From assembly GCA_003165595.1 (NCBI GenBank), contig PLWQ01000028.1:62001-126000 (forward strand): a stretch of DNA of 64,000 bases. The letters are read 5' to 3'. This document shows positions 43 to 1,832 of this stretch, piece by piece. Below the pieces are notes generated by a model. The model worked only from the letters and a program-made list of their open reading frames with translations, ran no database searches and was not told the DNA's origin. Both the position numbers and the translations under genes were made by a program. Source of the stretch: Fibrobacterota bacterium. Lineage in GTDB: Bacteria; Fibrobacterota; Chitinivibrionia; Chitinivibrionales; FEN-1185. Each line of letters starts with the position of its first letter. The first letter of the stretch is position 1.

Positions 43-816
43 TCACCCGACTATCTTCTTGCTCTCGTCCCAGTATGCGTCCATCTCGGTCAGCGTCGCA
101 GTGTTGATGTCCTTGCCGCTTTCCTTGTACTTGTCTTCGATGAAGCGGAACCGCCTGGCGAATTTGTCGACCGTCACGCGCAGAGCGTCTTCGGCCGAGA
201 TCCGGTTGTGACGGCCGACATTGACAAGGGCAAACAGAATATCGCCCAGCTCTTCTTCCGCGTTTTTCTGATCGCCCGCAAGCAGCGCTTCGCGGAACTC
301 GCCGAACTCCTCTTCCACCTTGTCGAGCACGGGCGCAATATCTTTCCAATCGAAACCGACCTTGGCCACGCGGCGCTGGATTTTTTCCGCCTTAAAGAGT
401 GCAGGCAGCGCATCCGGAATGTCGTCCACCAGGTATTTTCGGTGTTCCTTTTCGATCTTCTTGATGTGTTCCCAGTTGTGAATCACCTCGGTGGACGAGC
501 CCACGGTCACGTCGCCGAACACGTGCGGGTGGCGGCGGATGAGCTTGTCGGCAATGCCGCGCGCCACATCTTCGATGTTGAAGCGGCCTTCGTCCCGGGC
601 GATTTGCGCGTGCAGCACGACCTGCAGGAGCAGGTCGCCCAGCTCTTCGGTCATTTTTTCGTTGTCGTTCTGGTCAACGGCTTCGAAAAACTCGTAGGCC
701 TCGTCGAGTAGGCACGAGAGGATGCTCTTGTTGGTCTGCTCGCGGTCCCACGGGCAGCCGCCCGGGGCCCGGAGTTTTGCCACAATCTCAACGCAGCGGT
801 CGAGTTCTTCTCCCAT
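43..816 (-). CDS. mazG: Nucleoside triphosphate pyrophosphohydrolase MazG
   Basis: MazG hydrolyses NTPs and dNTPs to NMP and pyrophosphate in the cytoplasm as a house-cleaning enzyme. The 257-residue protein shows the two-repeat MazG layout. GGCPWD lies at residues 19-24. The first EExxE...ExxD metal site includes DEAYEFFEA (39-47) and EELGD (57-61). A second EEELGDILFAL block lies near residue 188. The open frame extends 18 codons further, but the ATG at 816 starts the conserved part and has AAAGG about 9 nt upstream. It is the last gene of a probable selW-tsaC-mazG group, separated from the TsaC-like gene by a 28-bp palindrome. Confidence 0.95.
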   Translation of the reverse strand: MGEELDRCVEIVAKLRAPGGCPWDREQTNKSILSCLLDEAYEFFEAVDQNDNEKMTEELGDLLLQVVLHAQIARDEGRFNIEDVARGIADKLIRRHPHVFGDVTVGSSTEVIHNWEHIKKIEKEHRKYLVDDIPDALPALFKAEKIQRRVAKVGFDWKDIAPVLDKVEEEFGEFREALLAGDQKNAEEELGDILFALVNVGRHNRISAEDALRVTVDKFARRFRFIEDKYKESGKDINTATLTEMDAYWDESKKIVG

Positions 817-962: not shown

Positions 963-1571
963 TTATTCCCGCCACTCCCCTTTTCCCATTCTTACCACCA
1001 CCGGTTCCTCATTCGTTAAGTCAACGATCGTGGACCCGACGGGATTCTCAAGCGTCCCCATGTCGAGCATGACATCCACCTCGTGCATGATCGCCGGCGC
1101 GATCCGGTCCGGGTCTCCGCGAAGCTGGCTTTCCAGGTTTATGGATGCATTGGCGAGCGGCTCTCCCAGCATGCGTACCAGCGCGAGGCATACGGCGTTG
1201 TCGGGCATGCGCACGCCCACGGTGCGGCGTTTCGGGCTCACCTTCTTGGGCACGTAGCTTGTTGCCGGAAGAATGAAGGTGTAGGGGCCGGGGAGGTAAT
1301 GTTTCAGAAGTTTGAAGTGCGCATTATCAATCCGAACATACCTGCTCATCTGGGAAAAATCCGAGCATATGAACGAGAACAGCTGCGCCTTGTCTTTCTC
1401 CACGATGGTGCATATCTTGTCGAGCGCCTTGGGGTTCGTTGCGCACGCGCCCATGCCGTAGACCGTATCGGTCGGATACACGCAAATGCCGTTGTCGTGC
1501 CGAAGCGAATGCGCGGCCTTCTCCAGGATGCGCACCTGCGGATCAACGGGGTGAATCTTGTAGCGAATCAT
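963..1571 (-). CDS. TsaC/YciO/Sua5-family protein (threonylcarbamoyl-AMP synthase-like)
   Basis: The 202-residue protein has the YrdC/Sua5 fold signatures: YPTDTVYGMG near residue 32, PGPYTFILPA near 95 and KRRTVGVRMPD near 113. Family members make L-threonylcarbamoyl-AMP from threonine, bicarbonate and ATP, the first step of tRNA t6A37 synthesis. The YciO branch is less well defined in function, and this sequence resembles it at least as much as TsaC. It ends after about 200 residues, so it has no Sua5 C-terminal domain. It starts 27 bases after the SelW-like stop on the same strand. No clear Shine-Dalgarno is visible. Confidence 0.88.
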   Translation of the reverse strand: MIRYKIHPVDPQVRILEKAAHSLRHDNGICVYPTDTVYGMGACATNPKALDKICTIVEKDKAQLFSFICSDFSQMSRYVRIDNAHFKLLKHYLPGPYTFILPATSYVPKKVSPKRRTVGVRMPDNAVCLALVRMLGEPLANASINLESQLRGDPDRIAPAIMHEVDVMLDMGTLENPVGSTIVDLTNEEPVVVRMGKGEWRE

Positions 1572-1598: not shown

Positions 1599-1832
1599 TC
1601 AAGTTCTCGCGGCTCGTCCGCGTACAATGCCTTCAATCTCGCCGTCGTCGGGAAACCTGCCGAGTTCCTTTTTTGAGAATATAAGTTTTCCGTCAAGCAC
1701 GACCTCAAAAACGCCGCCGCGGGATTCGATGACGTCAGTTTCGGCGCCGAATTTCCTTTTGAGCTCGTCCGCCAGACCGGCGGCTCGCGGCCAGTAGTCT
1801 CACATGCCGCAGTACGTGATGGTGAAATTCAT
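1599..1832 (-). CDS. SelW/Rdx-family selenoprotein with in-frame TGA (Sec11)
   Basis: Reading minus-strand from the ATG at 1832 (AAGGGG about 6 nt upstream) gives M-N-F-T-I-T-Y-C-G-M, then TGA at 1802-1800, then D-Y-W-P-R-A-A-G-L in the same frame to a TGA at 1601-1599. With the first TGA read as selenocysteine, the 77-residue product has the Rdx/SelW thioredoxin-like signatures: a CxxU redox motif (C8, U11), the PRAxxLxxELK helix, GGVFEVVLDGKLIFSK and GRFPDDGEI. That is the full family length and order. SelW-like proteins are small thiol oxidoreductases. TGA is an ordinary stop elsewhere in the window, so general reassignment is unlikely. A gene finder would miss or truncate this gene. Confidence 0.87.
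1769..1783 (-). promoter_or_regulatory. Candidate bacterial SECIS hairpin
   Basis: In the mRNA, 16 bases after the in-frame UGA, CCGCC (1783-1779) and GGCGG (1773-1769) form a perfect 5-bp stem closing the loop GGUCU (1778-1774). The loop begins 21 nt after the UGA. From memory this is the same loop sequence as the E. coli fdhF SECIS and is within the spacing expected for SelB recruitment. Function is inferred from position, stem and loop together with the SelW-like protein it would serve. Confidence 0.75.

Follow-up and report, generated by a model that had tools for sequence, protein, structure and literature searches.

The DNA analysed here, referred to as the window, is a stretch of 64,000 nucleotides from a draft genome of a Fibrobacterota bacterium (assembly GCA_003165595.1, contig PLWQ01000028.1, positions 62,001 to 126,000 of the forward strand). 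Near its beginning, the minus strand carries a selW-like gene with a TGA codon inside its reading frame, a hairpin shortly after that codon and two further genes:

1599..1832, minus strand: selW-like gene, 77 residues including one predicted selenocysteine (U11), with a terminal TGA (translation; PF10262, NF041051 and TIGR02174; TGA-containing homologues)
1800..1802, minus strand: in-frame UGA, putatively read as selenocysteine, motif C-G-M-U (sequence; same codon TGA in 30/30 homologues; CxxC at this place in PDB relatives, for example Atu0228)
1769..1783, loop 1778-1774, minus strand: candidate bacterial SECIS hairpin CCGCC-GGUCU-GGCGG (local fold energy; pairing and covariation over 20 sequences)
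963..1571, minus strand: Sua5/YciO/YrdC-family gene, downstream of selW (PF01300, E 3.2e-45; neighbour also in L023, L024 and L025)
43..816, minus strand: MazG nucleotide pyrophosphohydrolase gene, farther downstream, given for context only (PF03819, E 7.6e-40)

The selW start codon is the ATG at 1832-1830, directly preceded by the purine-rich stretch AAAAAGGGG. Translation gives MNFTITYCGM-U-DYWPRAAGLADELKRKFGAETDVIESRGGVFEVVLDGKLIFSKKELGRFPDDGEIEGIVRGRAART, in which the in-frame TGA is codon 11 (1802-1800) and a second TGA (1601-1599) is the terminal stop, for a length of 77 residues with U counted. The redox motif, YCGMU, lies near the N terminus and is of the CxxU type (C8-G-M-U11). An earlier note on this DNA had proposed a SelW-like frame running from the ATG at 1832 past a TGA in a CxxU motif for 77 residues; its coordinates are correct and the match to the Rdx family extends over the whole frame. 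An ordinary rule-based ORF listing of the window contains no ORF for selW. The expectation that gene finders would miss the gene therefore holds for rule-based ORF calling, but not for every route of annotation, because the NCBIfam '(seleno)protein' models match and family-based annotation could find it. The gene thus corrects an omission of ordinary ORF calling and leaves ideas on selenocysteine use unchanged.

Upstream of selW, on the same strand, lies aroB. The Sua5/YrdC-family gene starts 27 nt after selW and is probably its operon partner. Three relatives (L023, L024 and L025) share this adjacency, and the neighbour was not found in the short stretches covered for the other six; the link is therefore local.

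Family assignment and known relatives

The predicted protein matches the Pfam Rdx family (PF10262) with 67.6 bits against a curated cut-off of 22.6 (E 1.1e-18, profile positions 3-73 of 74). It also matches NCBIfam NF041051 (92.4 bits, cut-off 88) and TIGR02174 above cut-off. Because of the Rdx E value and the NF041051 match, the reading frame is not due to chance. Its CxxU motif aligns with the CxxC of relatives in the PDB. Among these, Atu0228 (2fa8) and SAV_2001 (3dex) are Cys-containing Rdx proteins with solved structures that belong to the same family by sequence; they differ in having Cys instead of Sec at the CxxU position, with no recoding. Mammalian selenoprotein W (2npb) is of the same family by sequence (E 0.00064) and has a CxxU motif. 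The eukaryotic SECIS of the mammalian gene lies in the 3' untranslated region, whereas the element described here is inside the coding sequence.

SelW-like bacterial selenoproteins had been described by 2005 (PMC1088965) and 2006 (PMC1794560) at the latest, and the present gene is a further member. Sargasso Sea data contained 48 such sequences (PMC1088965), sequenced bacteria 10 Sec-containing entries (PMC1794560), and a 2016 survey listed 35 (PMC5029168). With these proteins (PF10262; NF041051, TIGR02174) the gene shares the N-terminal CxxU, the Rdx domain and a SECIS that lies within the coding sequence, immediately after the UGA. We see no essential difference and regard the gene as a new member at species level, 71% identical to the nearest copy found.

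Selenocysteine machinery in the host and its relatives

The draft genome of the host has 42 contigs, a size of 5.39 Mb and a completeness of 98%. It encodes a tRNA-Sec (selC) with a UCA anticodon, whose 68.3 bits exceed the gathering score of 47. On contig 23 this gene forms a cluster with selA and selB, which follow it and have profile matches of 507.8 and 292.4 bits, respectively. The host SelB has 652 amino acids, with EF-Tu-like domains and a winged helix (SelB-wing_3 domain). Away from this cluster, on contig 27, lies selD (368.6 bits), an open frame with Cys rather than Sec in its N-terminal motif. The earlier note had predicted that the organism makes selenocysteine, and the search is in line with this: far from lacking all sel genes, the genome has selC, selA, selB and selD. 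The organism very probably uses selenocysteine.

The UCA anticodon also bears on the idea that TGA is generally reassigned in this organism to one of the standard amino acids (Trp or Gly, for instance), a reading that could likewise account for a TGA being read through in selW. Against it stand the tRNA-Sec gene itself, the long genes of the window, which read normally under table 11, and above all the end of selW, which is a TGA, as in most homologues' copies. As TGA is a normal terminator in selW itself, general reassignment is ruled out, and we assign it a vanishingly small probability.

Among 61 genomes, tRNA-Sec was above cut-off in 17 and selA in 15. SelW occurred in 10 of the 17 selC-positive genomes and in none of the 44 without selC (Fisher P 2e-7, a value that ignores shared ancestry). 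All ten SelW genomes thus have selC, and nine of them, all but the 77% complete G015, have selA. SelW was not found in seven genomes despite their tRNA-Sec (G002, G003, G005, G007, G009, G027 and G031, all but G005 also with selA).

In two of the relatives, sel genes gave more than one match: G003 has two selA and two tRNA-Sec genes above cut-off, and G027 has two tRNA-Sec matches above cut-off, one of them at a contig end. Either mixed bins or an additional sel cluster could account for this.

Conservation of the UGA codon and selection on the downstream frame

SelW homologues were identified in 9 of 60 related genomes, each with a TGA inside the frame; a scan of named genomes brought 21 others, whose hosts include Deltaproteobacteria, Acidobacteria, Zixiibacteriota, Firmicutes and Neomarinimicrobiota. 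In all 30 homologues, a set that covers close relatives only, TGA stands at the codon corresponding to the window's TGA; Cys forms may exist beyond, and the more distant PDB relatives have CxxC. Alignment with Rdx-family proteins, proposed in the earlier note, accordingly places TGA at the same position throughout the 30 homologues and CxxC in the PDB relatives. In no homologue was the frame found broken elsewhere: it is open on both sides of a TGA that falls exactly at the U position, and after the TGA it continues in 30/30 with conserved segments of the GGVFEV/LIFSKK type.

Downstream (3') of the TGA, comparison with the nearest copy, from the same genus, gave a dS of 1.04 and a dN of 0.19; against other copies, dN was 0.23-0.45, with dS saturated or nearly so. 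Judged from these substitution rates, the selW codons downstream of the UGA are under purifying selection.

A pseudogene or a sequencing error would offer another account, in which TGA has replaced a Cys codon (TGC or TGT) in a gene that is dead or was misread. The change would take a single base, and the window comes from a draft assembly (42 contigs). Yet the same TGA recurs with an intact frame in 30 of 30 homologues from independent genomes, the downstream frame bears the marks of purifying selection, and the host has sel genes. As dN is far below dS after the TGA, and as independent homologues share the codon, we regard a sequencing error or dead gene as ruled out, with an extremely low residual probability.

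A covarying hairpin downstream of the UGA

The hairpin has a 5-bp stem and a 5-nt loop, GGUCU. It starts 16 nt after the UGA, with 21 nt from UGA to loop, and its local fold energy is -8.2 to -9.5 kcal/mol. In the SECIS of E. coli fdhF the apical loop also has GGUCU, and SelB binds the short upper stem-loop, although fdhF is a different gene. A published model of bacterial SECIS elements requires a loop of 3-9 nt with G in the first two positions, a stem of 4-16 bp, a UGA-loop distance of 16-37 nt and an energy of at most -7.5 kcal/mol (PMC13188914), and the selW hairpin agrees with it in loop, G, stem, spacing and energy.

In one sequence alone, the hairpin is weak evidence, not better than chance. 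When the same peptide was recoded synonymously, a qualifying hairpin (at least 5 bp, loop of 3-6 nt) arose in 45% of trials, and one with GGUCU in 1.8%. The minimum free energy (MFE) fold of the single 61-nt sequence from the UGA was not more stable than shuffles (z 0.33); longer single-sequence folds, this one included, favour pairs other than those of the hairpin. An Rfam search of the selW region matched no model. Folding the mRNA downstream of the UGA, as the earlier note had suggested, gives a divided answer, in which the local hairpin is within the energy limit of the published model and the 61-nt MFE structure prefers other pairs.

Comparison of homologues is what makes the hairpin convincing, through conservation and covariation. 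Across 20 homologues, 95% of cells are paired, and at four of the five pairs both partners have changed, as in C-G replaced by U-A in the third position of Ala codons. The covariation score was reached by none of 500 shuffles, and pairing was lost when the hairpin columns were slid by 1-3. The position and structure given in the earlier note are correct, but they amount to strong evidence only on such comparison.

These data weigh on a further alternative, non-programmed readthrough of the UGA by a near-cognate tRNA, with low-level insertion of Trp or Cys and a hairpin without role. The weakness of the hairpin in the single sequence would suit it, as would the Cys forms (CxxC) of the family, since a Cys product would be functional. 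The compensatory changes in the hairpin, the confinement of SelW to selC-positive genomes and the strict conservation of UGA, and not UGC or UGU, all speak against it, and we consider it very improbable.

Other selenoproteins in the genome

The search for further selenoproteins took in six common families, SelD among them. Formate dehydrogenase alpha gave weak matches below cut-off only, with no internal TGA; peroxiredoxin, CMD/AhpD and thioredoxin likewise showed no internal TGA, and HesB had no match. SelW is the only selenoprotein located in this search of part of the known families. A scan of the window for frames that contain a TGA, a hairpin and a Cys close by returned 20 matches, of which one is SelW and the other 19 look non-coding by eye; a coding-potential scan for recoded genes in 20 genome stretches and the window did not recover SelW. 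In the part of the literature covered, there was no relevant paper on Fibrobacterota and selenocysteine.

Given the relatives that have tRNA-Sec and no SelW, there are probably other selenoproteins in the order. That this organism has no selenoprotein besides SelW, or hardly any, is unlikely; in that case it would maintain its entire selenocysteine apparatus for the sake of a single small redox protein.

Proposed decoding and function

At the level of sequence, the UGA codon, its hairpin, the Sec machinery and selection acting on the read-through product are all evident. The gene almost certainly encodes a selenocysteine-containing protein of the SelW/Rdx family, in which UGA codon 11 would specify Sec. 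We infer both the incorporation of Sec and the function of the protein. By analogy with the established bacterial pathway, SelD would make selenophosphate and SelA would convert seryl-tRNA-Sec into selenocysteyl-tRNA-Sec. SelB-GTP with Sec-tRNA would then use its C-terminal winged helices to bind the loop of the hairpin and would deliver Sec at the UGA, after which translation would continue to the second TGA. As the family suggests, Cys8 and Sec11 would form a thiol/selenol redox pair on a 77-residue thioredoxin-like Rdx fold. The covarying hairpin, spread across several phyla, also gives clean natural data on the SECIS elements of SelW-like genes.

One homologue has an unusual motif. In Candidatus Neomarinimicrobiota bin.81 (L052, about 15-224, near a contig end), the SelW homologue reads YSVTU, not YCVTU; the Cys of CxxU seems to have been replaced by Ser, with the UGA kept.
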